A stretch of 64,000 nt of DNA, from assembly GCA_946902875.1 (NCBI GenBank), contig OX336353.1, forward strand, positions 17,559,151 through 17,623,150, read 5' to 3'. Origin of the DNA: Nematopogon swammerdamellus. Taxonomy: Eukaryota > Arthropoda > Insecta > Lepidoptera > Adelidae. Position numbers and translations under genes: made by a program. Below are positions 26,701 to 60,700 of this stretch, piece after piece. Each line of letters opens with the position of its first letter. Within the stretch, counting starts at the first letter, position 1. The notes below the pieces were generated by a model that saw nothing but the letters and a program-made list of their open reading frames with translations, made no database searches and had not been told where the DNA came from.

Positions 26701-29700
26701 AAATGATTTGACCAGCTGTTCTTGGGCCGAATTGGCAGTTGGCAGTATTTATTGAGCCATACATTCTGAAATAATTGCCTCGGACAGAGCAAAAGTTATA
26801 CTACGCAACACTAAAAAATATTTGCTCTATTAACATACATAAACTGTACCTAAGTCAAGTTCAAGGAGAGACATTCCTTGTATACCAGACGGCATATAAC
26901 TTGGACCAGGGCAGTAGCCGATTTTAGGGTATCTTTGGCGGAGGGCGCGGGATGCGACGGTGGAGAGAGCGCCTGTAGACCGCGTGATTGGTTGGCCAGT
27001 CGCCCGCCGCCCTCCGCACCGCGCGCGCGCGTTCGCTCCCAATTACACTTCCCTACCTGCACAAACTGGTCCAAGTTATATGCCGTCTGGTATAGTTATT
27101 GGTACGCATACGTATTTAAATCGATAGATAGGGCAAAGCGCTCAAGAGTTCATCATGTGTGCGTGACTTGATGTAAAGTTGTCATCAAGAATTGCATCAA
27201 AAGCTGCCTCATGTTAACAAAACACTAACGCTCTGCACTCGCGCATCGGCGCGTTCCGTTCCATTCCGTTCCGTTCCGTTCCGTGAAACGAGCTCCACAC
27301 ACGCGCCTGGCGCTGCTTCTGATGTGGCCCTGCATCAGAAGCAGCGCCGAAGCATCTGCATGAAGGAACTGCATGCGGCCCTTTCATTGGTGACACTGTC
27401 TGTAGTGCGCCATGTTAGACTATGCCATATCTATCTATTAAAATTTTTGGCGTATCTTAAGTTGAGCGAGATGTTTTATCCATAATCTTTGTGACAGGTG
27501 GATTTGTACGAACCGCTACACGGCAGCGCTCTGTTCCAGCGCGGACAGACGCAGGTGTTGTGCACTGTCGCTTTCGACTCACCTGAGAGCGCACTCAAGA
27601 TGGACACTCTCACCATGCTCACTAGGTGAGTAGCTATCTTGAAGCTAGCATCAACAACTGGGTGCCACAATAGCAAACTTTAAGCGGCAGGTGGCCGAGT
27701 GGTTTGGGTATCGGCTTCTTTTTTTTTTTTTTATGGAAACTGACACGGTTGTCTACATCACCTACAACGTCCGTGATGTCAGCCCGTAACACCGGGTGGA
27801 CTAGGTGCCATGTCAGTGCTTCCCTTAGTGCCCTTTGATCGTGCCGGCTACACTGAACTGGTCGGAAAACACAAACTCAACGCGGGAGGTCCGCGGTTCG
27901 AATACGGTCGGCGTGGACCAATGAGTTGTAAGTTCTCCACCTGACACTATTGACAGAGTACAACCTCACACGTCACAAAGTGTTGCGCAACCTTCCTCTC
28001 ACCATGAAGCATTTTCGCCCAGAGACCGACTAAGCTTACCGAGCATATCCGAGACCACTTGGAAGCAACATGATCGATGCCTAGCCGAAAGACTTGACCT
28101 CCCAGGCTGCAGGCAGAGTCCCGAAGATCAGCTGTATGACTTCCAGGGAACAATTTACAATTACTTCTCCGAATTGTACCCTGTTCGCTATCACCACAAC
28201 CCAATGGAAAGAGAAAACACTTTCAAAGCAAAGCTTAGGAGAAGGAAGAGAGAGTTGATAAAGCAGCTAAGGAAGGCTAAAGCCTCAGGAGACAGAAATC
28301 TATGCCACCAATTAGCCAGAGCGATGAGATCTATCCTAAAACTCATCCAGAAAGTATCTGAACAAATTACGGTTGCTGGCAATGAATTTCGAAAGGCTCA
28401 GAATATAGCAGCTTTCGAGAAGAACCCCTTTTATTTCGCCAAAAAAGCTTTTAAGGAACAGCAGGGTACAATTAGGTTAAGTACGGACGAGATGTTCAAC
28501 TACTTTAAATCCACATATACCACCCCGGAGGCAGATATAACTTACAGGGATCCACCAGCTCCAAAACCCAAAGAACCTGCTCTAGCATTTGATGCTGATT
28601 CACCGACGATGGAAGAGCTGGAATACCACATAAAAAGGAAACCAAATAGTTCCGCCCCGGGACCCGATGGCATACCATACATCATATACAAAAAATGTCC
28701 ATCAGTGCGGAAACACATGTTGAACATCTACAAAAGAATTTGGACGAACAGAGAAGTGCCAGACTGTCTTGGTAAAGCCGTGTTTGTTCTTCTACCAAAA
28801 AAGAAAGAAGTTACTGATCCCAAGGATATTAGACCTATAGCCCTTACGAACACAATTTCGAAAATATTCTTCTCCATTATACAGGCCAGACTACTCAAAC
28901 ACATGTGTACCAACGACTACTTACCGAAGAAGTACCAGAAAGGTTTTCTCCCAAGAGTTGCAGGGTGCCTCGAACATAATTCTTTGCTGACTGAATGTCT
29001 TAGAGATGCAAGGAAGAATGAGAGACAATTAACTGCCACGTGGTTAGACTTTGAAAACGCCTTCGGTTCGGTGCGCCATGAGTTACTATTAAAGGCGCTA
29101 GAGTGGTATAATGTGCCACCTCTGATCTGTAATATAATAGCCTCCTACTACAAAAAACTTTCCTTTGTAATACAAGTAAAAGGCGAAACGGAGAAGACAC
29201 CGGAAATTCGTTACGGCATAGGACTTTTCCAGGGTTGCTGCCTCTCTCCTGTCACATTTAACATTGTTATCAACATTCTAATTGATACGCTTGTCGTAAA
29301 AGAAAAGAAATGGGGATACAGGTTCAAATATGGAGACACATATATGGCGGCCATCCTGGCATTTGCGGATGATATTACGCTGTTAACCCGCAATCCAAAA
29401 CAAAATCAGTTGCTTCTTAAGGTGGTGGATGACTATTGTGAATGGACCAAAGGGATGAAGATAAAACCAGCGAAATGCTACTGTTTGAGCTTAACCAGGA
29501 AAGGTTCAAAGTTTACCTCGAGCAATCCAGGTTTGACAGTAGCCGGAAAACCAATCGCAACCGTGGCTGATGAAGCTCCTTTTAAATTCTTGGGCAAAAG
29601 GATCACCAGCAGAGGAAAGGAGCATCCTACTGATGATATTGTCCAACTTTTCGAAGAGAGCCTCCGCCAAACTGACAATCTTCCCCTCCTGGGTACACAA

Positions 29701-32700
29701 AAGGCATGGATTTACGATAACTACCTGACATCAAAACTTTCATGGCCATTTCTCGTCTACGACTTCACAAAGCAAAACCTGACTAAATTAGACTCGTATG
29801 TGACCAGATTCCTGAAATCATGGTTTGGACTGGCTCACCCGGCTGACTCGTCAACGCTATACAGATCTCACAATAACTTTGGACTGAACATTAAGAAACC
29901 GTCGATATTTTATCAAAAGGCGAGAATAGCCAAACGATGTATACTCAAAGACTCCAATGATAGCGCTATTCAAGCCTTACCCAACACATCACTATCAGAT
30001 GAACTGGAATCGAGACTCGACTTCTACAAATCATTCCAAGTTGGTACACGCACCAATAGATCTGGATTGGGCATAGAAACAGCAAAGTCTGATAAAGAAA
30101 TACTGAAAGGTTTTGCTCAGGAGGACATGGAACAAGGCTTCAAACTTCACGCCTTAAACCTAGAAATGCAGAATGATTGGCTAACAGTGGGTGACTTCTG
30201 CATCCCTCCTGCATTGAAGTGGAAATCCATAATATACAACTGGTCCCCTGAGCTGCTTAAGTTCTACTTAAATGCATTCCAGCTTACTCTCCCCGACCCG
30301 AGTAACCTAGTTAGATGGGGGAAATCTACAAATAAACTATGCCCGTCATGTAAGGAGTTCGTAGGCACGGCCAAACATTTGTTATGCGGATGCAAAATAC
30401 TACTTGAGCGAGGCCAGTATTCCTACCGTCATGATAAAGTCCTCCAAATCATCAGAGAGGCCATCAACCTGTCAATTGCACGGACCAGGAAAGGGCAAAC
30501 CAGTAGCGGCTTCCAGAAGGTCAACTTTGTGAAACCTGGAGCCAATAAGCTGCCCAAAGATAGGACTAAACCTTCTTCAATTTTGGGAGCAGCAAAGGAT
30601 TGGGAATTGTTGATGGACACACATGAGAAGCATTACCAAATGCCTTCGGAAATCTGTACCACAGCATTAAGACCGGATATACTCATATACTCAAAAGCGA
30701 CAAAGCATGTAGTACTTGTTGAACTTACAGTTCCATGGGAAAGTAACATACCGAAGGACCACAACATCAAACTTAACAAGTACTGCAACTTAGTAGACCG
30801 GATTGTGAGAAACGGATTCAAGACTGATCTCTTCGCTGTGGAAGTCGGAGCAAGAGGACTACCAGCGATGTCGCTCTACAGTCTCTTCAAGAATCTAGGG
30901 CTCCCAAGATCGACGCTAAGCTCATATATGGAGAGAGCTTCGAAAACGTCACTGGAAGCATCCTACAGAATATGGATAGGTAGAGAGAGGGAGGTCGAGA
31001 GCGGGACTGGTGGTTTCCCCGCGTCCTAGTCAACGCAGACTAGCTGACGAGGGCTTGAAGCGAGCCGAAACGTGAAGCATGCGCGGGAAATTTAGAGTGG
31101 CCACTCGCCAGTCCCGACCTCGATTAACACTCTCCTCTACTGTCGATGGGCCCGGATATGTTGGGTGTAGACATCGCAAGCTCAGGTCCACACCCTCAAA
31201 AGAAAAGGGCAAACCAGTGGCGGCTTCCAGAAGGTCAACTTTGTGAAACCTGGAGCCAAAAAGCTGCCCAAAGATTGGACTAAACCTTCTTCAGTTCCAT
31301 GGGAAGCAACATACCGACGGAACACAACATCAGACTTAACAAGTACTGCAACTTAGTAGACCGGATTGTGAGAAACGGATTCAAGACTGATCTCTTTGCT
31401 GTGGAAGTCGGAGCAAGTGGACTACCAGCAAAGTCGCTCTACAGTCTCTTCAAGAATCTAGGGCTGCCAAGATCGACGCTAAGCTCATACATGGAGAGAG
31501 CTTTGAAAACGTCACTGGAAGCATCCTACAGAATATGAATAGGTAGAGAGAGGGTGGTCGAGAGCGGGACTGGTATTTCCCCGCGTCCTAGTCAACGCAG
31601 ACTAGCTGACGAGGGCTTGAAGCGAGCCGAAACGTGAAGCATGCGCGGGAAATTTAGAGTGGCCACTCGCTAGTCCCGGCCTCGATTAATACCCTCCTCT
31701 ACTGCCGATGGGCCCGGATATGTTCGGTGAAGCCATCGTAAGCTTAGATCCACACCTTCCCCTTTCTGATGAAAAAATTTACGTGCATACCTGCTAAAAT
31801 TGCATAAAAATTGCATAAAAATTTATGTGCTACATCTGCTGCTTCACCGTTCGGAAGTAGGTCCCTTCCCTTGCCCCTCACTAGGTGGTAGGCTCAAATT
31901 GTAGCCGACTAAGTTGGTACCACCGTACTGGGAGTAAGATGGCTGCATAGCAGCCTCAGTTGTGTTCTCCTCCAGTCCAGTATAGCCAGCAATCCAGGGA
32001 AGTCTCCGGTATGGCGCCTACCTGCTGGAGGTGATATTGAACGGTCGGAGCATGTGTTTTGGCCCCTCCGACTCAGCCCGGATTACAAATAAAAAAACGA
32101 ATAAAAATACTCTTAACTTAGTGTGTCAGGATCGCGGCACGTGGAGATCCGTTGTCTCTGCCTACCCCACTGGGAAACTGGCGTGACGCTATGCATGTGT
32201 GTACTCTTAACTAACTCTATGATAAACGATTTACTTTCTCGAAGTAACCAAGCCACTAAGGCGGGACTTAGATGATAAATTTTATTGCACAGCGGAGTAA
32301 AGGAGAAGAATTTCTTCCTCCACTACGAGTTCCCGCCGTACGCGACTGGCGAGGTGGGGCGCTCGGGGGCGATGGGGCGACGCGAGGCGGGCCACGGGGC
32401 GCTAGCTGAGAAGGCTCTGCTTCCCATAGTGCCCGACCAGCAGTATACGGTGCGGTTGACTTCAGAAGTGCTCGAGTCTAATGGTGAGTGATGTACGTAT
32501 GTATGATCGTACCGTGTGGGGCCGGTAGTAGTGTAGAATTGGGCTATCTAATTCACCTCGACAAACATCATGCCGTTCAGTCTAACTCGCATCGCTTCGC
32601 TCATGCTCATTATCCTGAACACCAAGATGTTTCTGCCGAGGTGAATTAGATAACCCAATTCTACTGTATCGCTGCGGGCAACTATGCTGATTATTTGAAT

Positions 32701-35700
32701 AAAGTCGAGGTTAAATTCTGTTAACTTCAAATCGATAAAACTCAATTTACCTGCTGATATTCATGTATTGATAAGACTGAATGCCGATGAGCTGCATATA
32801 GCGATTATAAATGTTTGCAATTTTTTTTTTTTAGAGACGCTGTAAGTAAGGCATGCATGCTTTATAAAATATTGTATGCAATATTTTTTTATATTCTTAG
32901 TATTTCAAGCAATTCTCGCTTTGTCTAAAGCCCACCCGCCCGTGGAGCACTATTAAATTTCATGTAATGAATCTCTTTATCGTTTGCATGCGAGCTATTG
33001 TACATACATACTCAAATACCCCATCAAGCAGGAAATTCATCAAGCCCTCCACAACCAGACTATATTATGAAATCTTTCCTATTTCCCTGAAATTCTCGTA
33101 GGAGGCTATATTTTTGCCAAGTTTTATATCATGAACACGTATAGTAATGGAGGTCTAATTAAAATAAAACATGTTTATTAGCAAACAAGAATATTTTATT
33201 TATTCTATTACATGAACAGCATCATAAAAACACTTGGATTAATTATAAGATACGGTTACAATTATAATGCCTTCATAGGGCAAGTACTTAGCTTATAAAA
33301 AGTATAAAAAAACAGCAGATCAAACACGCAAACACGTAAATTAATTATTTTTAAGACGCAATTACAATTTATAATGCCCCCATGGCAAAGTATTATAGCT
33401 TCTTTTCAACAATCGCCGCTTATCATCAGATCTATCGAGCACCGATTTAAAGATTTCCTGTGTGAATACATTGTGATTAACCGATCGAATAGTATGCATT
33501 TTACGTCGAACTATCGCGCCGCTGTCAAGAGCGTGTTTGTATTCATCGCTGCGTAATTGCTTGGTAACAGATCCGGATATACCTTTTGCTTTCTTTATAG
33601 ATGAATCCGATGTTTTTATGCAGTACAGTTTAGCGCGAAGTCCTATGAACTCTGATATAACCACACCTCCCATTTCGTCTTTGAAGAGACCGGGAACTTT
33701 CATATTTACTCTAGGTATACCGTAAATATTATTGCAGGCAAAGTTGCTTGTATCAAAATTTGAAATATCGTCTTTTATATCTCTGTATATGTCATCAGTA
33801 AACACATGGTAAAGTAAACTGTCCGTATCAGTATAACATAATTTTATATTTTTACTGAACTTTCGCTTCATTACAGAGTAATGAAAATTGTATAGATGGG
33901 CTTTCGAAAGTTCTAATACGGTAAAACCGATGTAAATTGGCCTGTCCAAAACAATTTCTTCAGGATGCAATTGAACCGCTGCTAGATTTTCTGAAAATAT
34001 CGAAATGCTTTTGAAGTTAGGCATGCATACGAGTTTTTCAGCGCTTAAAATCTTGTTCGTTATATTACGATCGTCTCTCCACGAGTTCACTAATTTCACA
34101 TTAGCTTGCTTACGTTTGTTTTCGATTGTTTTTCCGAAGATAGCGTTATTCATTTTTTTAAAATTATCCTTTTCAAATTCTGACTTGGCAACCGTGCGCA
34201 AAGAAGTGTTAAGTTCAATATACTTTTTCAGAAAGTCATCCTGCTTGAAAACGAGTGCTCTATGCACTTTTTTCAATATCAAACCATTATTCAGACATGT
34301 CTTTAAGTGGATGTAATGAATAACATAGTTATGTTTGTGATATAAACTTGCTATGAGTTTCGAGTTAGCGCCGCCAGGCGGTGTAAGTTTTTCAGGCGCG
34401 AAAGGTAAATCCGAATGATCGTCGTGCAAATATGACGGGTATTTCAAATCAACCTCCAAAACATAGCCAATGTCGCTGTTATCGGGGACCGAGCGAATGT
34501 CCAAGCTCGCGATTTCATTAGCGGTTAAAAATGAAAATTGGGACACCGGCATTTTCCTCATCATGGAAAAGCCATATAAGTTATTTGAATCGAGATATAT
34601 GCAAAAACTTGAGGGTAATGACTCGTCATGATCAGGCAGATACTTGTTATTAGGTTTACAATATCGCAAAGAGACCTGAGCCAATCCTCCTCGAACACCT
34701 TTCTCGAAAAATTGATAAATCTCTATATCAGAGATCAATTCAAGTTTGACTTTAGTGTGAAGTAGCATCGCATCCCAGCTCAGCCCCGGCGAGGTTACAT
34801 AATAAGCCGGATCGAGCTTGTAATGTTTTAAGCTCATATTCCTAAAGTTTTCAAATATATCGCACAATAACAGAACATCGCTTTTTAAGTAAAGTTCTGT
34901 ATATTGACCCAAACTTTTAACTCTAAATTGTCTCCAAACATTTACAGCATGCTCATAATCGCTTTGCGATATATCAGCCGAAGTGAGCGTGTTGTAAAAA
35001 CTATCTTTTAACGGTAACTCGATTTCATCATATTTACCCCAGGAATCAACATAGTCGTATGGGAACACTCCTTTACGGCGTATCAAGTTGAAAAGTTCGC
35101 GCTCGGGAAAGAACGACTTCAAATGTGTAAAATCTGTATCGTTAAGACTCTGAGCGAGTTTTTCAAGACTAGAATTTAAAAATTTGAACGAATCAACAAA
35201 TTTTATCTGCGCGAAATGATCTTTGCTTAGAGGGATGTATTTAGTAAATGATATATAATTTTCTTTATTTTTAGGTATAATTTTTATAACACCTGGCGTG
35301 CTGCCTAACTCTTTGATAAATAAATGGCTGTCGTAACCAGTCAAATTATGGAAGAATACAGGTACAAACGAGCATTTTTTAAATGATAAATTGCAGCTCG
35401 AATGAGCTGGGCCTCTTAGCTCCCCAGTCATATGATCATGATCCGCTACTATGTCACCGAATAAATAATCCCCGCATATATGACATTTTTCTGCTTCCGC
35501 TAAAAGCTTTTCCTGCTCTGAGTTCAAGGTCTTCATAGGCGTGGCTGTATGTAATATACCGTCAAGTTGAAGAACTTCTTTTGTAAGCATTTTCACGAAT
35601 TTTTTCACGCAATCGCGCCCTCGATACTGGACTAGTTTATTTAATTCAGGTTTTAAAGCTGAGCATATATAAAATGCAAAACAACTAGGCTCGTGTATTG

Positions 35701-38700
35701 TAGCATAACATGTCTTTTCTGTATCCCGACTCTCGTCTAAACACGGCTTCAGTATACTTTCAAAGTCAGCGTAAATAACGAATGGAACTCTCTGCATTTT
35801 TTCCCAATTATGAAATTCTAAGAAAGTGTCTTTTGCGGGCAATATGGTTCGCACTCGAGAGCAGTCATGCCCATTAAATTTATTTTCACTGGTAAAAGTA
35901 AGCAAGCAATCTTCACAAAGAAAGGATTTCCCATGATGCTTTGATATTTGTTTTTGAACCAAAAGACCGAGATTTGTGATCAGGCAGTAATGCGACTTCC
36001 CGCCCTTCTGTATGAACAATAAATTTATATGATTGTATTTTCTGTTTTGAGTCCTGTATAGAGGCCCGTTTACATTAGAATTTGAGGCTAACCCGTACAC
36101 ATTCACGCTAATGCATGGATTGCTATTTTCAAAAAATGTTATATCTTCAAAACTGGGCGGGAAATTTAGATTATATGTGTTAAGCACTGTGGAAAAGTGC
36201 GGATATGAATTAACTCTGTGTGGGTTTCTGGAAGCAGGATGTAAATGCGCTGTGATACACCACGCAAAGCAGTATTTATCGCTATTTTGAATATTTAAAC
36301 AACTTTTATTGCGTCGAAGAGCTGGCGGCAAGGGAATGTACGATCCAGCCCTCAAAGGATTATATCTATTAATGTTTAGCTCAAGGTACGCAACATTTTT
36401 AAGTGTCCATCCGCTATCTCGATGTTCAAATTCAGAACTTTTGTGAATTAAACGTTCTACAGCATGCTTGTAAAATATCGCGATGTTAGTACCTCTCAGT
36501 ATAGCCTCATACCGCGTATTAAATGATTTCAACTCGGTTTCATCGTTTTGAGGTAGAGTAAAATGAGCAAAGAATTCCAAATTTACTTTAAGCGATGTAT
36601 GCTTCTCTAAGTGTATTTCTATAAGAGTTTTTACTTCTGATTTTACTTGCTTCAAGAATGCCTCAGGCGTGATAAGTTTTTGCGATGGTTGTATACGGTA
36701 ACTGCATACTCTTTTTTTAAAAGCTGACGCGATCAGTCTCACATTACCAAATTCGGTGCTCAATAGACTATTCGTTTTATGTAAATTGCTTCTCTTATGA
36801 GCATGAAAATAGGATTTGTGAACGCTAACATTACATTTTTCACAGTACATTATTAAAAGTAATCCCTAAACTGCTTCCTCAATATTATAAATTTCTTAAT
36901 TACTGCTTCTTATCATAAAATTTTTTCTCTTCTTTTACAAACGACTGCAGGTGGGACCACCCAGTGGAATTTTCGGCTAAATTCTCGCGCAGCGTTATGA
37001 GGGCATGCCTCCAGCGGTCGGCAGGCCTCACCATAGCAATGTCTTTCGAGTTGTAAATTTTTAATTCTACATAGTATTCGCCGTCCTTAACAGTCAGCTC
37101 ATGCTTCGAGTATCCGCACGATGACCGACGGCTTAAAGAATTAGCGAGCAATATTTTTGGTCGCTCCTGTTTCTCACCGCCATCCTCGCTATCGGTACCG
37201 AATAGCTGATACGCAAGCTTGTTATTAGCAACCTCACCATGCGATGGGGAGCGCTTCTTCGAGGGCCGCACGATGTCTTCCTCGCCGGACGAGTGTGTAG
37301 AACTTGGGAGAGGATTGGATCGCGATTTCTTGCTAGACGCTGACGGCCGGGCAGCTGGAGTTCTCTTTTTCTTCCGGTCAGGTATCAGAGACGACGGTGC
37401 TGCAACGTCCTCATCGGAAGATAAGAGGCTAGGCAGGCTGGCTTTCTTGCTCCTGTAAAGAAGAAATAATAGCTGCAGTGGTTTAGAATAAAAAAAGCTG
37501 TCCGTAGGACTGCGCGGCGGAAATGCTGAGCGTGACAGTTACGTGAGTTCACTTCAAAACATGCGCGGCGTTGAAGAAAAAGATAATGTTTTCTAGATAT
37601 TGTAAAATACTTCTACTTACTTACATGACTGTATCTGCTGTGCACAGCGCCGTGCTGAAGGATTTCTCGAGACCGCTTGATTTCTCTCCGACGCTCCGAT
37701 CTGAAACAAGCGGGGAGGACAAGTTTTATAGCATAATTATTTACAAAGTTTCAAAGAAAAGAAAATTTGCAAGTATTTGAACGAGCGCAAGAGTCAATCA
37801 ATCATTACATCGCTTAAAAACATGAGACAGAGCAGAGTTTAAACATGCATGAAATTTTTACAAGTATTTGAAATTGTGATGCTTAAAAATTGGAAAACAG
37901 ACGGGAATTGATCAAGTGTTTTATTTGAAATTTCAAAGTATTTTTTTCAATTAAAAACAGTGCAAAGAGTCTGAGAATAACAAGTAAAAATTGCCCTAGT
38001 TATGAAGAGATAAAACTTACCAGTCGAGTTCCTTGAGTCTCGGCGAAGGCGGGGCAGGCACTTACTTGTTCACTTTCCACTTTTCACTAGGCACTTGTAC
38101 TTACTGCTTACTGCTCAACTGAATGATGCCCGGTACTAGCGCGACGTCAAATTTATACAAAAACCAACGCATAAAGCCAGATTCACATAGGGACTGAAAT
38201 CTTACAGTAAATACAATGTTTGTATGCAACGATCCGCCCGTCTTCCATATTTCATCATCAAAACCGTGTGTGAGCATGTCTTTACAGAATAATGCAGTCA
38301 GGCGAATCAGCATTTTCACGGGAATTGAAATAATATTGCTTCGCAGGCGGCTTTGTACAAAGCAAGGCGCTGTGGCGCGGCGAGTGAAATTCGAAACTTC
38401 AATGCCCGGCGGCGGTGTTAATTCGTAAAAATACATCTATGCGACCGCTCTATATGAAATTTTAGGGTTCCGCACATTAAAAGGAATAAAGGAGTGCTTA
38501 CAAAAAACACCTCACTGCCTGCCTGCCTGTATGCCTGTCTGTCAATAAAAAAAAGCCTGTAGAGATACTGCATGCGGTATGTGCATATATGCATGTTATT
38601 GCACATATATTTATTGAGCATAATGTATGTTGGCTGGGAAAAATTTACTAAGGCGGTAAACCCATCCTCGCCGCATATTAAGCGGTGTAAAGCGTATTAT

Positions 38701-41700
38701 TATATTATTAATATTATGTAAATACAAAATTATTCTCGTAATATGACTACTTTCAAATGAGAATAGATTTATGCATAATGTTTTTTTTTTTACTTGAATT
38801 TAAATCGTAAATTTGCTGGGAAATTAAAACTCAAGAAGTAGCTTACATATACATTTATTTATTCTTTAAATTTCATGTTTAATTTATTTATAAAAATAAA
38901 AATAAACAATAAACCTTACGATATTATGCTAACACTACAGCGTGGAAAATGTACATTCTCGGGATATCTTTCTTAAAATATTTTGAGTTAAATCCATAAT
39001 TTCATTATAACCGCTTTCAACAACCACGTACTGAGACTGCACTGTTAGAACTTCAGAAGCTTCGCTCCCTACTAAATCATACGTCTGAATTTTTATTAGA
39101 TGGTGTCCCCGAGCCTGCTGCGGTGTTATTATGTATGATGACGGCTGTTGTTTAACGGCAGCTTGCATCTTCTTTTTTCCCCGTCCTTGACTAGTGGACT
39201 GGCTCGAATTTTTGAAAACGCCTGTTTCGTCTATCCCATAACTCTTGAGACATCCGGCGCTCCGCTCGTTTTTTAAAATATCATTATAAGTTTGAAGTAT
39301 GAGAGGTTTTGAACTTGCATCGCCATATGTCATGGCTTCCTGATCGCGAATCTGAAAAAAACAATTAAACATTATTTTATGTAATGCTGATTTGATGTAA
39401 TGCTGGAAAACATGAAAATAGTTATTATTTATTTATTTATTTATTCTTCCTTTATCACCATAGTGAAACATGGAAATAGTTGTTATTATTATAATATGAG
39501 GCTTACCGACATGATGCAGGCGTGTGAAGTATTCGAAATGTAAAGCTGAAGTGCCGCGAGAGCGGAGGAGTTCGCATCGCTGCAGCCATGATAATTTCAT
39601 CAATATTTCAAGTAAAACCTGTTCTAACATGTTTTTTTTTTCATCGAGTAGCACCTGCAGATACATGGGCGAGCTTGCTAGACACGTTTCGCTGAAATCA
39701 TTGCAGATGTCAAATTCGCGCTATCGAAAAATATTTCAAGTTAAGCCTGTCGCAACATGAATTTTTTTTATTTTTCATCGATTAGTACCTACAGTGGTGT
39801 GCACGAGCTTGCTAGACACGCATCGCTGAAAGCATTGCGGATGTCAAATTCGCGCATAGTAAAGCGTTAATTAGGCATACATCCCTTTTTTAGATTATAT
39901 TGCATGTAAAACGTTTTTTTTTCATACAGCCGGAATTTATAAAAGGGGGGTGGCTTTGCTGAAGATAATCATATATGCGCATTCAGCAGCTGAGTAAGGA
40001 ATTATATTAGGAGTATAGCGGTCATGAAATTTGTAAAACAACCTATATTATTAGATTTAAATTTCGCTTATCGCTGCGGTGAAAGTGAAAATTCAGCGCC
40101 GAGGCATTGCAGTCTTCTACCGAATAGTATAAGATCTTTAGTATGCGGAGCCAGTAATTCCGGGAAAACAAACCTGATTTTAGCACTCTTATTACACGAG
40201 AATGGGTTAAAATATAGAAACATTTATCTTTACTCAAAAACAATATTCCAACCGAAATACCTTTTCCTTAGCAAAGTTTTCGAAAATATACCTGAAGTAA
40301 GATTTGAAAAATTTTATAATAATGAAAAAGTTATATCACTCCTGGAAACATTGCCGGATTCCATTTTTATTTTTCGATCGCGATTTCTTTTCGATGGAAA
40401 GACATGCATTTATCGACTGTTTTTACTTGACTCAAACATACTCGAAGATACCGAAGCAGCTTGTGAGGGATAATGCTAATTTGATTATACTTTTTCGGCA
40501 GGATGATGTAAATCTGAAACATGTTTACGATGAGCATGTTAATAGCGATATGTCGTTTAATGATTTCCGTCATATTGCGGCGAGAATTTGGAGTGAGCCC
40601 TATAATTTCTTGGTAATTAATAAGGATTGTGAAAAGAGTAATGGGCGGTATAGAAAAAATTTTGATGAATATCTTTCCAGCGAATAAAATCTTTAAAATG
40701 TCTCGAGGGAAGAGTCAAAGCTCATTAATACTTAAATTTTAATGGTAATAGGTTGTCTTTTAATTTTTATAACAATTATCATGATAAATATTAATAAAAA
40801 TAAATCCATCAAAGAGGAAATTATAAAATCATGGTAACTATAAATGGGTTGGAAAACCACTTGCAAATATAATGACTAATTACAATAATACAGTGCACAG
40901 CACCACGCGTTTTAAACCTGCAAATGTGAGCAATTATAACACGGCTGCTGTTCATGCAAATATTGAAAAAAGTAGAAAAAAATATGCAAACGCGCTGCTA
41001 CCCCCGAAATTTAAAATAGGTGATCATGTCCGTATAAGCAAATACAAAGGAGCTTTTGCCAAGGGATATAATCCGAATTGGTCAACTGAACTGTTTAAAA
41101 TAGCTAAAATAAAAACAATGAGGCCTGCCTCGTATATATTAAGCGATATGCACGGCCAAATTATATCAGGATGTTTTTATGAGCAAGAACTGATGAAAAC
41201 AAGATATCCAGATATTTACCTGGTTGAAAAAGTTTTAAAAAGAAATGGGGAAAAGTGTTTGTAAAATGGCTGGGTCTTCCCGCGTCTGAAAATAGCTGGA
41301 TAGATGCTGATAACAAGGTATAATTAGTTATAAAAAACTTGAAACGCTTGCTAAAACCTTCATTTGATGTTAAGTGATGAAAGGGGAGGGAATAGTCGAT
41401 ACATTGATAAATAATTTACCTTTTGAAATTCATCTGCCTGGCTATAATTATTGCGGCCCGGGGACACGTTTAAATAAAAGACTGCAGCGAGGTGATACGG
41501 GGGTTAATCAATTGGACGATTACTGTCGAGAACACGATATAGAATATATGAAATCAAAAAATTTGGGCGTTAGACGTATAGCTGATTTAAAATTGATGGA
41601 TAGAGCGGGGAAACGTTCAAAGTGTGCTGATGCAGGGAGAGGAGAAAAAATCGCTTCATGGCTGGTGAAAAATATTATGAAGGCGAAAGTGAAAGCGGGG

Positions 41701-44700
41701 GGCCGGTGTAAAGAAAAAAATAAAAACGTTTAAGACAGCGATAAAAAAAATTAAGACTAAATTAGGAAAAATTAAATCCAAAAGCAATAAAACTGTTATT
41801 CGTCGGGCGCTTGCTTTTGCAAAAAAGATTATTCCGAGGAATGCATGCATTCCATTGCCTAGAGTAATACCAATTCCAAAAACAGGTGGTATATTACCGC
41901 TTATACCAATTTTTGCAGGCCTATCTGCTTTAGGCAGCTTGGCTGGAGGGGCTGCTGGAATCGCTAAAGCCGTGAATGATTACAAAATAGCTAGAGAAGA
42001 TTTGAAAGAAGCACATCGTCATAATAGCGCCATGGAATCCATCGCTATAGGACATGGTTTATATCTCAAACATTATAAAAATGGAGCTGGACTCAAACGA
42101 TCGCCATTCTACCTACAGCAGTCATAAGAATCGAATGCGATATTGTGAATGGCTCTTTTATAAACGGGAAACCATCGCATCGTATCTTCATATCGATTGC
42201 TGTGAAAACTGTAATCTATTTAGCACCTAAACATTACCATTCTGCCATCGGCATTCAGTTTACCGATCAAAAAGCGATTTTAACCGGCATTCAGTTTACC
42301 GATCAAAAAGCGATTTATAAACGGGAAACCATCGCATCGTATCTTCATATTGATTGCTGTGAAAACTGTAATCTATTTAGCACCTAAACATTACCATTCT
42401 GCCATCGGCATTCAGTTTACCGATCAAAAAGCGATTTTAACCGGCATTCAGTTTACCGATCAAAAAGCGATTTATAAACGGGAAACCATCGCATCGTATC
42501 TTCATATCGGTTGCTGTGAAAACTGTAATCTATTTAGCACCTAAACATTACCATTCTGCCATCGGCATTCAGTTTACCGATCAAAAAGCGATTTTAACCG
42601 GCATTCAGTTTACCGATCAAAAAGCGATTTATAAACGGGAAACCATCGCATCGTATCTTCATATTGATTGCTGTGAAAACTGTAATCTATTTAGCACCTA
42701 AACATTACCATTCTGCCATCGGCATTCAGTTTACCGATCAAAAAGCGATTTTAACCGGCATTCAGTTTACCGATCAAAAAGCGATTTTAACGCTCAAAGA
42801 GCTCTGCAATGCAAACGATCTGCACCTGCATCGCAGACGTAGTTTATAATTGGGCTGTTTGATTTCACCTCGACAGACAGATCGAGCTGTTTGAATCATG
42901 AGTATGAGCGAAGCGAATGCGATTATGATTGAGCAGCTCGATGTTTCTGACGAGGTGAATCAAACAGCCCAATTATACACTACTGCCGGTACTTTAAAAG
43001 AATAGCCCCACTGCATCTCTCCCCGTGTATGTCGTAAAAGGCGACTAAGGGATATGACTCTCTTCTTATATTACTAGGTGGTAGGGTTTAACCCGCCCGG
43101 TTTGGTACCACCGCACTGAATGAAAGGTCGGTCGAAACGGCTATGTAAATAGTTTGTGTTTTCCGTCCAGTTCAGTGTAGCCGGCACGACCGAAGGGAAG
43201 CACTGACGTGGCACCAAGTTCACCCGGTGTTATGGGCTGACATCACGGATGTTGTAGGTGATGTAGCCAACAGTGTCAGTTTCCATAAAAAAAAAAAAAA
43301 ATGATGTAATTGTGTCTGATGTACGTATGTATGATGTAATTGTGAGTGATGTACGTGTGTATGATGTAATGAGAATCAACGCGGTTTTTAGTTTTGAATG
43401 TAGTATTGAAGTCCATGAAAAATCCAAAACATTGGTAAAATTATTTTTTTTGTCGTACGACCAAAAATGACCTAGTAGCAATCAAATGAATGCGCCGATC
43501 GTCGACTAGGCTCGGCGCGGAGTGCGTGACGTCACGACACTCCACGCCGCTTCGAACCCCCAGTTAACCTGTTGGAAGCGATAAGGCGCGCAGTGTTTAT
43601 GTTTGGTTAATTTGTGTTTAAAACAAATTAAGTGTCCGATTTGTGCCTGGTTTCACTTTTTCACAATGTATAAATATTGTATTGTGCCGAAATGTACAAA
43701 TACGTCTATCAAAACGCCAGAGAAACTATTTTTAAACGGTTTTATTTAGCTTGACCCCTTGTTTGTTTGTTTCAACAACTTTGCGACAACTTTTTCAACT
43801 ACTTCTACTGAACCGATTCTTAAGAAACTTTGCACACACATTGAGTTCCCGTGACAATACAATGTTATGATAATTTCAACTTGGTAACGAGGGTCTGATG
43901 ATGGAGACAGGAGGTGTACAGTGGAACTCTTCAACCGTTACTAGTAACCTCCTCGAGTTTGGGCTCATATGGTTGGTTTGGACGAGTGCTCCATACTTCT
44001 ACTATACACTTGGTGACGAGGGTCTGATGATGGAATCAGGAGGTGGGTGGTGGAACTCTTCAACCGTTACAGTAACTCCTCGACTTTGGTTTGAACGAGT
44101 GTCCCATACTTCTACAAATACATTTGGTGACGAGGGTCTGATGATGGAGACAGGAGGTGGACAGTGGAACTCTTCATCCGTTACTAGTAACCCCCTCGAG
44201 TTTGGGTTCATTTGGTTGGTTCGGACGAGTGCTCCATACTTCCACCAATACACTTGGTGACGAGGGTCTGATGATGGAGACAGGAGGTGGACAGAGTTCG
44301 TGTTTTCCGTCCAGTTCAGTGTAGCCGACGTGTAATAAATTGAAGCACTGACATGGTACCTAGTTCGCCCGGTGTCATGGGCTGACATCACGGATGTTGT
44401 AGGTGATGTAGCCAACCGTGTAATTTTCCATAAAAAAAATATTTCCAATATTTCTGTTGTCAGGGTCAAGTTCAATGGCGTCCGTGTGCGGTGGGAGCCT
44501 GGCACTGCTGGACGCTGGCGTGCAGCTCACTGCGCCAGCCGCCGGGGTCGCTATCGGCCTCCTCACCAGGCACCAGGCCGACTCCGCACACATTGACGAC
44601 TATCGGATACTAACTGATTTGCTGGTGAGTGCGTGGTGGTATTCTTATTATTATTATTTTATCTTTAATTCTCACGCTCAACTCTTTTGCTACTACCTAC

Positions 44701-47700
44701 TTACATTCCACTATATTATCGAATCTCAAACATCCAAAGGTTTTTTTTATGGAAACTGACACGGTTGGCTATATCACCTACAACATCCGTGATGTCAGCC
44801 CATAACACCGGGTGAACTTGGTGCCACGTCAGTGCTTCCCTTCGGTCGTGCCGGCTACACTGAACTGAACGGAAAACACAAACTATTTACATGGACGTTT
44901 CGACCGACCTTTCATTCAGTGCGGTGGTACCAACGCGGGCAGGTTAAACCCTACCACCTAGTAATATAAGAAGAGAGTCATATCCCTTAGTCGCCTTTTA
45001 CGACATACACGGGGTGAGATGCAGTGGGGCTATTCTTTTAAAGTACCGGCCCCACACGGTACACGGTTGACTGTAAGAAATCTCTGTAAGGGATAAGTCC
45101 GCCTTTGCTCCTTATGTAAATTGTCTGATGTGGTTGTTACTGTTTAATGTTTACTGGAGCAATAAAGCATTTTCTATCTATCTATCTAACAAACTGGCGA
45201 CCAGAGGGAAGCACTGACATGGCACCTAGTTAACGAGGTGCCATAGGCTGACATCACGGGTGTAGTAAACGATGCAGTCAACTATGTCAGGGTCCACAAA
45301 AAATAATTTAGTTTTTTCAAGTTCTCCATTTTTTTTTATGTTATCCGGTATGGCTGGCTGAGTCGGAGGGGCCAAAGCACATGCTCTGACCAGCCAATAT
45401 CACCTCCGAGAAGGTAGGTGCCATACCGGATACTTCTCTGGATTGCTGGCTATACTGGACTAGAGGAGAACACAGCCGAGGTTGCTATGCCGCCATCTTA
45501 CATCCAGGACGGTGGTACCAACCCAGTCGGCTACAATTTGAGCCTACCACCTAGTAAGGGGACCAGGAAAGGGACCTACAGTTTTACACCGGTTCGGAAC
45601 GGTGAAGCAGCAGGTGTAGGTAGGTATGCATGTAAATTTTTTCGTCAGAAAAAAGTACACGCTGACCGGATTCGAACCTCGGACCTCTCGCATGAGAAGC
45701 CGATGCCCAAATCTTCCACCGAGTCATGTAGCAGGTGGGTCTTCATGCCTCGCTTGATAGTTATCTGGTCTGAATAATTTGTTTTTTTCCATTCAAAAAA
45801 CATTTTCTCATAGAAATTGTTTGTTGAAATCAAGGTGTTACACTTTCTTACACATCACTGTACCGTGTGAGGCCGGTGCTTAAAAAGAATAGCCCCACTG
45901 CATCTCTCCCCGTGCATGTCGTAAAAGACGACTAAGGGATAAGGACGAGATGCCGTGCTAAAGGGAGACAGGTTAGCCACCTCTCACCTTGGCACCTCTT
46001 TGGCACGTCTTTGTGCCTTACTTGCTGCTTGATAGTTATCTTGTCCGAATACTTTGCTGAACCTGGTGGACGATGTTGTGCTGCAATTTTCGAGATTTCT
46101 TGCAGCACAACACCGATTACTCTGCTTACCCTGATTGTCGGGATACAGCGTGTGTGGTTTTGAAACACATCACTCTCCCTGTTGCAGGGCATCGAGGACT
46201 ACATGGGCGATATGGACTTCAAAGTGGCCGGTACGAAGAAGGGCATCACAGCGCTGCAGGCGGACATCAAGATCCCCGGGCTGCCGCTCAAGATAGTGAT
46301 GGAGTCGGTGCAGAAAGCCTGCGACGCCAAGGCCAAAATTATCGACATCATGAATACATGCATTGACAAGCCGAGGTTAGTTGTTGGAAAACATTTTATT
46401 CTTGATTTTGAACATAACACCTAAAGCGTTTCAACTTAAGGCGGAAATAAGACTGAAAAGGTCAACTTTAAATGAAATTATTGAGCTATTGGTAAAGATA
46501 AAAAATCTGTAAAAAATATATGTTATGTATTTATCTTTAATTAACAAACATAGCGAAAAAAATTATATTTTACTACTTTGAAAAGGTGTTAAATAAATCT
46601 CCAAAAAATTACGAAAAGTACGAAAATTTTAGTTTCAAGTTAAATTATCTTGAGAAGCATAAATTGTTTCAATATAAGACCCTCATAGAAATATAGATAA
46701 TATTTTTCCCTACAATCGTAGCGAAAAAAATATTGTTTTTCATCTTTCCAAAACGTGAAATTTAATATACACGGTGTTGCAGTTGCCCCCGTAATATTTT
46801 TAACTGACATAAGGGGGTTATTCTATATGTGAAACTAAACAACTTCTGCGAAGAAAAACATTTATTTAAAACAAAACAAAAATTTTTTTTTCCATACAAA
46901 TTTTAATTACCTATTCTCAAAATGTATGGAGAAAAAAAAATTTTTTTTCTTCAAATAAAAAAGTCGTAGAACATAAGTTGTTCTATTTCACGTACTGAAT
47001 CACCCCCTTTCGGGTTTTACGGTTGGGGTTACAACACCGTGTATAGTGTGATTTTCGCGCAAACGTTCTTCGTCGGCGCGACGTATCAGCCACCGCACGA
47101 GTAGAATGAATCTCGCACCTATTTACATCTGCATACGATTCGTGTTTCAATCATCTGTGCTCGGGTAGCACGGTTTGAGTCTTATTTCCGCCTTAACACC
47201 TAAAGCGTTTCAACTTAACCCTTTGCCTCCCAACACATAAAATTATATGGGAATTCACACATTCCAAGGACATTTTCGCCGCGCGGAAATTCTCGAAATT
47301 TGGTCCCGCGCGCAAACTAAACTCAAATATTTCGTAAAATAATGAAGTTATATCAATAAACTCTTTTGGCACGTAAAGCTAATGAAATGACCTACAAAAC
47401 AATGCAAAACTAGTGAGGATTCGCTTATTTAGAAGCACTGACGGATTTTTTGACCTCCGGGAAAAATGGAACACATCTGACATTTTTTCCGAAAATATTT
47501 ACGAAAATCACAAAGAACTTCCATACCCATTTTTAGTTCAAATGAACCCAGAATGTATAAGAATAAGGTCATATTTTGACTGACAATATTGCAACATGTT
47601 TCCCCCGATGACAGACAAGGGCGCAAGGAGAATATGCCGGTGATGGAGAAGCTTGAAGTGGAAGTGCACCAGCGGGCGAAACTCCTCGGACTCGGAGGCT

Positions 47701-59189: not shown

Positions 59190-60700
59190 TCTGTTGCCCG
59201 CGGCTTCGCTCGCGTGAAATTCGTATTTAAAAAAAAGAAGGCGAATCTGCGTTCACGTAAACGATATTCTTTCTCGATGAAAGTAACTAAGGGCGAGGCG
59301 GAAGGCGGAGCTGAGTTCAGGAAGAAGAAAAACATTCTTGAAGAAAGTAAGTAACTAAGGGCGAGGCCGAAGGCCGAGCTCTATTCTGGAAGACCATAAA
59401 CCTTCTCGAAGAAAGTAAGTAACTATAAGCGAGGCCGCAGGCCGAGCTGCGTTCAGGAAGAAGCTAAACCATCTTGAAGAAAGTAAGTAACTAAGGGCGA
59501 GGCCGAAGGCCGAGCTACGTTCGGATAATTGAAAAACCATCTCGAAGAAAGCAAGTAACTAAGGGCGAGGCCGAAGGCCGAGCTGCGTTCAGGAAGAAGC
59601 TAAACCATCTTGAAGAAAGTAAGCAAATAAGGCGAGGCCGAAGGCCGAGCTGCGTTCTGACAAATGATAAACCATCTCGAAGAAAGCAAGTAACTAAGGG
59701 CGAGGCCGAAGGCCGAGCTGCGTTCAGGAAGAAGCTGAACCATCTCGAATAAAGTTAATTAATATTAAGATTGAGTTAATTTAATTTAAATTTTATTATA
59801 AAGTCCACGCTTCTAACGGCAAATATACCGTGCATCCTAGAACCTCGCGGTTATTCCCGGCTGGATGGCAAGAGGCTCGATGCTATCACCTTAGTGCCAT
59901 GGACTAAGGGTAGTTCTATGGTGTGGGACGCCACTTGTGTTCTCACATTGGCTCCAAGTCACGTTAGGGCATCTTCAAGAGCGGCTGGCGCGGCCGAGGC
60001 TGGGGCGGAGAGCCTCAAACGCAGCAAATATAGAAATATAATTCAAGATTTCGAATTTGTTGCGTTTGCGGTTGAAACCCTCAGTCCGTGGAGCAGTGAA
60101 GCCAAAAGAGGCTTGAGCTGGTTGACGCAACTGGTGTCCCGCCATCAAGGGCTTATGTACTTCATTCAAAGGGTAAGCCTTGCCATCCAGCGGGGTAATG
60201 CCGCAAGTGCTCTAAGAACATTTGAAAATGCCCGTTTTGATAGTTATTTTATTTTTTGTTAGGTAGGTTTAATTCTTTAGTTATTAATATTACTTTTTTA
60301 TTTTTATGAAATAAATAGATTGAGTAAACGATATTATATTCTATCGAAGAAATGAAGTCTTTAAGGGCGAGGCCCGAAGGCGGAAGAGTGTTTTTGGTTT
60401 ACCTGAACGCAGCTCGGCCTTCGGCCTCGCACTTAGTTCCTTCCTTTCTTCCAGAAGGTTTATCGTCTTCCTGAACGCAGCTCGGCCTTCGGCCTCGCCC
60501 TTACCTACTTCCTTTATTTGAGAAAGGTTTATCGTTGACCTGAAAGCAGCTCGGCCTTCGGCCTCGCCCTTAGTTAGTTACTTTCTTTAAAAAGGTTTAT
60601 CGATTACCTGAACGCAGCTCGGCCTTCGGCCTCGCCCTTAGTTACTTACATTCTTCTTTGAAATACGAATTTCACGCGAGCGGAGCCGCGGGCTCAGCTA
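59190..60700. mobile_element. inverted pair of tandem arrays around a retrotransposon remnant
   Basis: Outer ends are inverted: GCCCGCGGCTTCGCTCGCGT (59197) and ACGCGAGCGGAGCCGCGGGC (60674). Inside, 59280-59755 holds about 7 units of about 68-70 bp (GGGCGAGGCCGAAGGCCGAG); 60360-60655 holds about 4 similar units in reverse. The centre contains a retrotransposon endonuclease tail (59812-60262). Confidence 0.75.
59812..60262 (+). pseudogene. retrotransposon C-terminal fragment (RPDG/WDATC type)
   Basis: The frame reads LDGKRLDAITLVPWTKGS, SSMVWDATCVLTLAPSHV, FEFVAFAVETLSPWSSEAKR and SLAIQRGNAASALRTF, then a stop. This C-terminal block is widespread in animal retrotransposons, where the first motif is normally RPDG; here the Pro is Leu and the usual VDTLA is VLTLA. 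5'-truncated. Confidence 0.65.

Follow-up and report, generated by a model that had tools for sequence, protein, structure and literature searches.

A window of 64,000 nucleotides from the genome of the moth Nematopogon swammerdamellus (assembly GCA_946902875.1, contig OX336353.1, positions 17,559,151 to 17,623,150 of the forward strand; positions below are counted from the first letter of this window) contains a virus-like insertion of 10,458 bp at 32527-42984, which starts with AG and ends with CT. It appears that this element is an internally deleted copy, of a structural class here called A1, of an adintovirus/Polinton family that integrated recently and repeatedly, and whose partial genomes were mobilised in trans and complemented each other, a reading to which we give an even chance. 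It is based on the shared ends of the copies, their complementary gene sets, shared deletion junctions and similar youth, the target-site duplications (TSDs) around them, and one chimera between the two common classes, A and B. In a preliminary description the element had been taken for a single damaged Polinton/adintovirus-like insertion that merely lacks a capsid gene. The assignment to this group stands, in line with the family B DNA polymerase (PolB), the 6-bp TSDs, and the integrase (rve and chromo matches) and double jelly-roll (DJR) hexon of sister copies. The absence of a capsid gene is likewise true for the window copy, capsid genes being found in sister copies with identical ends. 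The picture of a single insertion has to be abandoned, as the window copy is one of a class of deletion derivatives whose recent multiplication took place in the deleted form.

The assembly of the same genome (699 Mb, 39 contigs) was searched with both ends of the element. The left 144 nt gave 115 candidate places (of the 40 scored, 21 are 100% and 19 are 99% identical), and the right 192 nt gave 114, of which all 40 scored were 100% identical (the window copy is included in both). When left and right ends were paired if they lay no more than 60 kb apart on one contig and one strand, 31 copies resulted, with lengths of 10,159 to 25,517 bp; 22 measure between 10.16 and 10.94 kb, and nine left and nine right scored ends stayed unpaired. 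Twenty-nine of the paired copies were read in parts, and the two longest were covered by one 151-base probe each. A perfect 6-bp TSD and the same terminal bases were present in all 29 copies read. Since two C21 copies, 1.9 Mb apart (L014/L016 and L034/L036), have identical flanks (200/200 on each side), these represent 28 distinct sites, not 29; the pair may be a duplicated locus or a duplicated assembly. Perfect TSDs at so many sites exclude a chance origin of the borders. They also bear on the notion of a plain fossil, a single old and decayed insertion, which the broken ATPase and phospholipase A2 (PLA2) frames of the window copy would suit, but to which near-identical copies at dozens of places leave virtually no credibility; it was rejected on the near-identical ends found genome-wide and the TSDs of all 29 copies.

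Comparison of protein pieces with the fetched stretches, together with probes across the deletion junctions, sorted the 29 copies into six structures: 15 A1 (window copy included), two A2, eight B, two with one PolB deletion, one chimera and one copy with all recognised genes (the all-genes copy). In the last, of 14,318 bp, PolB, ATPase, rve-chromo integrase, PLA2-pX, protease, penton and hexon are all recognised; its matches to the first part of PolB and to the integrase core are split in two, and that to the open frame unkA covers 45% only. The other 28 copies are partial, and 17 of these (15 A1 and 2 A2) have PolB without virion genes in the parts read. Class A1 keeps PolB, an integrase tail, PLA2-pX and a 157-bp tandem array, with an ATPase that is whole in some copies and broken in others; the parts read hold no protease, hexon or p160, and a penton remnant of at most 13%. 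The A2 copies combine PolB with a whole integrase match and, where read, show neither ATPase nor p177. In class B, ATPase, protease, penton, hexon and p160 are present and PolB is reduced to a remnant; the middle was retrieved for two of these copies, and in both the integrase was read. Among 11 further left ends (the nine unpaired ones and those of the two longest copies), eight are A-like and three B-like.

The deletions recur with the same junctions. Probes for A1 junctions 1 and 2 matched in 15 of 15 A1 copies and that for junction 3 in 14, the exception being the copy with about 11 array units; the other 14 have 4 to 7 units of the 157-bp array, and about 3 to 11 were counted among other class A copies. 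Both A2 copies match two of the three A1 probes. The two probes for the B-type PolB deletions both matched in all eight class B copies, and two further copies match only one of them. Relative to the all-genes copy, A1 has lost approximately 1.76, 0.82 and 2.08 kb, and the PolB gene of class B approximately 1.69 and 2.15 kb; the window copy has about 0.68 kb extra and about 0.34 kb fewer. Judged from the coordinates, the sequences overlap by 0-4 nt at each of the three breakpoints of A1 and at the first of class B; at the second B breakpoint about 50 nt of other sequence lie in between. The sequences would thus hold a stepwise deletion record, with one PolB deletion in two copies and two in eight, and with two deletions common to A1 and A2 and a different third one. 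Finally, an 11.9-kb copy (L028, L048, L051; C22) is matched by every junction probe, the three of A and the two of B, and is therefore an A/B chimera. This chimera might be a misjoin, and the C21 pair with its identical flanks might be one locus duplicated in the assembly, as expected if viral reads had been collapsed or wrongly joined. Such an artefact is, however, very improbable as an account of the family, given 28 distinct sites with perfect TSDs and deletion junctions that recur in many places.

Within-class divergence is 0.20% for A1 (PolB, 15 copies) and 0.18% for B (virion block, 8 copies). Between A and B it amounts to 1.1-1.4% in three shared segments and to 0 in the last 192 bp, the within-class values in those three segments being 0.12-0.36% for A1 and 0.21-0.56% for B. 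In the gene blocks the two classes thus look similarly young. If moths mutate at a rate of 2.9e-9 per generation, a divergence of 0.2% corresponds to approximately 0.35 million generations.

Since A1 lacks the integrase core, protease, hexon and a whole penton, the making and insertion of its copies must have depended on proteins provided in trans. By the same token, neither class can have multiplied by itself, short of host enzymes taking over, because A1 is devoid of integrase core and virion genes and B of PolB. The most likely suppliers would be sister copies with the same ends, above all those of class B, which offer virion genes and integrase and lack PolB. We envisage PolB-driven, protein-primed copying outside the chromosome that would start from recognition of the ends shared by all copies, a step that limits size (packaging, for instance), and insertion by the integrase, A and B complementing each other in the process. 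In view of the shared ends, the similar ages and the chimera, it is likely that A and B replicated together in one cell.

It could also be proposed that A and B are independent defective genomes, parasites of one full-length helper, either an endogenous copy or an exogenous adintovirus. The existence of a copy with all recognised genes fits this proposal, as does class A2, which has integrase and no ATPase, so that the deletions are not strictly partitioned. Nevertheless, that copy is only one of the 29 read, and the two common classes are complementary and similar in within-class divergence in the gene blocks; we regard the helper as a real possibility, if short of an even chance.

Trans-mobilised cut-and-paste families shed short derivatives. 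The shortest of the 31 paired copies still measures 10,159 bp, about 71% of the whole length, and since none falls below 10.16 kb a size-limited step is suggested; the end points of A1, A2 and B near 10.2-10.5 kb hint at one size limit, although this makes three instances. The length distribution also bears on the idea that class A is a capsid-free transposon that multiplies within the genome by means of the PolB it encodes and a borrowed integrase, with no part played by the class B virion genes. Class A does have an open PolB and the ends, and the sample, which favours A, holds 17 copies with whole PolB and, as far as read, no virion genes, versus 8 of class B. Against this stand the lack of any shorter paired copy and signs that the virion genes were of consequence to the lineage while it was active: penton has 2 nonsynonymous (N) and 8 synonymous (S) variants across the 11 copies in which it is whole (p 0.0004, one of seven genes, uncorrected), and the hexon is free of stops and indels in 11 of 11 copies. 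A capsid-free transposon is therefore improbable. Over the seven genes, variants found in at least two copies number 20 N to 19 S, versus about 3:1 without selection (p 0.001), and private variants 72 N to 38 S (p 0.016); as these counts follow a majority rule rather than a tree, they are indicative only.

A bolder form of the complementation scheme is that a double-stranded DNA (dsDNA) adintovirus is becoming bipartite, with A (PolB) and B (integrase and virion genes) replicating and spreading as mutually dependent partners through their common palindromic ends, the full-length form displaced, and both classes shaped by a packaging floor at about 10.2 kb. We consider this unlikely.

Several observations weigh against complementing partial genomes as the explanation. 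The all-genes copy exists, and a full-length helper could explain everything without mutual aid of A and B; the deletions are not strictly partitioned between the classes, A2 lacking ATPase and yet having integrase; and the chimera could reflect chromosomal recombination or an assembly fault. The PolB variants, mostly private (37 N, 15 S and 2 stops), look neutral. In the left 560 bp, B diverges by 0.56% versus 0.12% for A1, and because of this unevenness the equal youth of A and B is clear only in the gene blocks. The ends scored (40 of about 115) are those most similar to the ends of the window copy, so that the counts favour class A and young copies. The middle 2-3 kb of A1 was read in the window copy only, the absence of virion genes from this class resting on the parts read and the shared junctions. 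Lastly, the element is known here from chromosomal copies, while the definition of a multipartite virus turns on segments that are packed into separate particles and required jointly.

The class B hexon has a DJR domain (3e-110) and is 63% identical over its full length to "hexon [Spodoptera moth adintovirus 1]", and an adintovirus is defined by a hexon detectable through plain protein search against adintovirus hexons (PMC11071296). The family thus qualifies through class B, the window copy itself being devoid of hexon. An rve integrase with a C-terminal chromodomain was likewise found in a class B copy, the window copy having just the tail. One of the 29 copies, the all-genes copy, combines PolB, integrase, ATPase and protease in recognisable form, which the window copy does not; the protease match (adenovirus endoprotease, 0.0055) is below the Pfam cut-off. 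The TSDs and AG ends of Polintons/Mavericks were seen in all 29 copies, and the inverted repeat in the window copy. No Pfam match to a parvovirus-type capsid or a superfamily 3 helicase was obtained in the class A and B proteins scanned, the capsid being of the DJR type.

The best 120 of 4,148 protein matches to PolB are 49-57% identical, and those that carry organism names are presumably all lepidopteran. An origin from the PolB of mitochondrial linear plasmids was rejected on these names and on the 63% identity of the sister hexon to an adintovirus hexon. The AlphaFold model of PolB (mean pLDDT 70.6, pTM 0.53) has phi29 DNA polymerase, a protein-primed enzyme, as its best fold match (TM 0.29 on the query, 0.52 on the target). 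Since Pfam DNA_pol_B_2 matched in one of 22 PolB alignment members, the label is based on this fold match together with the invariant motifs. Adintovirus PolB is marked by an N-terminal OTU-like domain. The alignment here has conserved N, D, C and H residues, which may fit an OTU-like site; no OTU family occurs among the 25 families shown, of 27, for the 22 members, and the fold search matched polymerases. A PDB sequence search with PolB gave no match, nor did a scan of IMG/VR viral contigs with the PolB sequence; a scan with the alignment returned one relative, L009, 38% identical, on a contig of 17.4 kb. By eye, the frames neighbouring L009 look like capsid, ATPase and integrase genes.

The two ends of the element form a terminal inverted repeat (TIR), and each end is in addition a near-palindrome. 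Single-strand folding is far better than that of shuffled sequences at the left end (32527-32670, +, with a hairpin at 32533-32664; z -9.6) and at the right end (42839-42984, +; z -13.0). When the structure derived from the left end, which is thereby favoured, is placed on the right end, 36 of its 52 pairs are unchanged, 6 are changed on both sides, 9 are broken and 1 falls in a gap. In the outer stem of 26 pairs (leaving out the outermost, broken pair) 22 are unchanged, 4 are changed on both sides and none is broken. Self-pairing was thus largely preserved in the outer stem while the sequence changed, either through selection or through copying of one arm from the other. Such compensated palindromes bear on the start of replication in elements of this kind, and no account of palindromic ends in adintoviruses was found in the open-licence PMC literature (titles and abstract openings).

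In the window copy PolB (33362-36850, minus strand) is open over 1,162 codons, with a DNA_pol_B_2 match of 3e-25 and an endonuclease VII-like stretch. It is followed by unkA (36903-37463, minus), an open frame of unknown function that is possibly a 3' exon; about 0.68 kb here is absent from the class B copy and the all-genes copy, a comparison confined to the window copy and these two. A second such frame, unkB (38938-39372, minus), is present in class B too and has no relatives at E<=1e-3 among 5.8 billion proteins. Both frames are apparently preceded by 3' splice sites, as judged by eye, a hint of spliced genes. Imperfect direct repeats about 130 nt apart occupy non-coding sequence at 39602-39855, before the gene for the packaging-type ATPase (40024-40687, +; Pox_A32 1.7e-7), the frame of which is broken here and open over 230 aa in a class B copy. 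Junction 1 of the A1 deletions lies near 40830 (40790-40870) and marks the loss of two unknown genes and the integrase catalytic core. The stretch at 40872-41264 (+) that follows corresponds to the C-terminus of a 308-aa integrase in a class B sister copy (rve 4e-12; chromo 3e-4, below the Pfam cut-off). The preliminary description had thus correctly read an uninterrupted PolB and an integrase tail.

The PLA2 domain (41374-41733, +; Pfam 5e-13) and the adjoining basic and hydrophobic protein (41734-42127, +), which we take to be pX-like, share one frame in another copy. Class A junction 2 lies near 42090 (42050-42130), where the protease and the penton N-terminus are gone, and the 157-bp tandem array, here of four units (42157-42787), surrounds class A junction 3 near 42179, where hexon and p160 are gone. 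In a comparison with 19 other copies, the PLA2 and integrase-tail frames show small differences private to the window copy wherever the genes are present, and the ATPase break is common to some other copies.

The borders of the insertion, as first described, proved exact to the base. The perfect 6-bp TSD GCCGGT stands at 32521-32526 and 42985-42990, as established from sequence reading and joining of the flanks. The flanks joined without one TSD copy match a short interspersed element (SINE) at 45062-44741 (minus) over 322 nt at 97.2% across the junction, which is spanned in alignments by a total of 10 SINE copies from other places in the window. Because the joined flanks match in this manner, the borders are fixed and the SINE, now split into a 5' part (32509-32526) and a remainder (42985-43303), is older than the insertion. 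An RNase_PH match (1.5e-7) identifies an open frame with an exon of the host gene at 32279-32488 (+), about 40 bp before the element; weak matches to RNase_PH_C (0.051 at 46164) and KH (0.01 at 47580) lie downstream. Together these support a PNPT1-type host gene with an intronic insertion, and hence the proposed order of events, from PNPT1 intron to SINE to virus-like element. Elsewhere in this gene, between two RNase_PH exons, a 1,034-codon open frame at 27925-31026 (+) matches RVT_1 (7e-26) and presumably represents a non-LTR-like retroelement. Arrays of a 68-nt unit at 59281-59755 and 60390-60655 resemble each other in opposite orientation.

The family may illustrate the first steps by which a virus with its genome in one piece comes to have two, the origin of multipartite genomes from one-piece viruses being an open question. 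A stepwise deletion record in two complementary, similarly young classes would allow the cheat model to be tested on real lineages, and Polinton copies without a capsid gene are not necessarily fossils or transposons pure and simple. In the open-licence PMC literature (titles and abstract openings, hence no proof of absence) no description of complementary Polinton or adintovirus classes was found.

With the adintoviruses the family shares the DJR hexon (63%), the rve integrase with C-terminal chromodomain, PolB, ATPase and protease; PLA2, too, occurs in adintoviruses. AG ends are a feature of Polintons/Mavericks. The all-genes copy of 14.3 kb is close in size to Drosophila-associated adintovirus contigs of 13.3-14.6 kb, the first of which has PolB, integrase, capsid, protease and FtsK-type genes (PMC8363768). 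In contrast, 28 of the 29 copies here are partial, mostly of two complementary and similarly young classes; the near-palindromic ends are a possible further difference. As in Polintons/Mavericks, there are 6-bp TSDs and TIRs (PMC8097293) and a PolB, which is protein-primed in that group (PMC6431247). In vertebrate Mavericks 96% of the copies are defective, with hundreds in axolotl and tuatara, an amplification termed perplexing, and element size is constrained and virion genes are under selection (PMC8097293). The defective copies in that account are mutationally degraded, and complementary deletion classes are not mentioned in the available part, whereas here structurally defective copies multiplied near-identical.

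Among insect viruses, the Bidnaviridae (Bombyx bidensovirus) also combine a polintovirus-type PolB with two segments, VD1 and VD2, in separate capsids; they differ by a parvovirus-derived capsid and helicase and by ends without hairpins (PMC4061559), as opposed to the DJR hexon, near-palindromic ends and integrated state found here. According to theory, cheats that drop shared genes can drive the evolution of multipartite genomes (PMC10159356). The partial genomes described here, each dropping shared genes and complemented in trans, would correspond to such cheats, with the difference that the record would be one kept in chromosomes, by a dsDNA element of which an all-genes copy is still present. 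What emerges is a family of adintovirus proviruses surviving mostly in the form of partial, complementary genomes.

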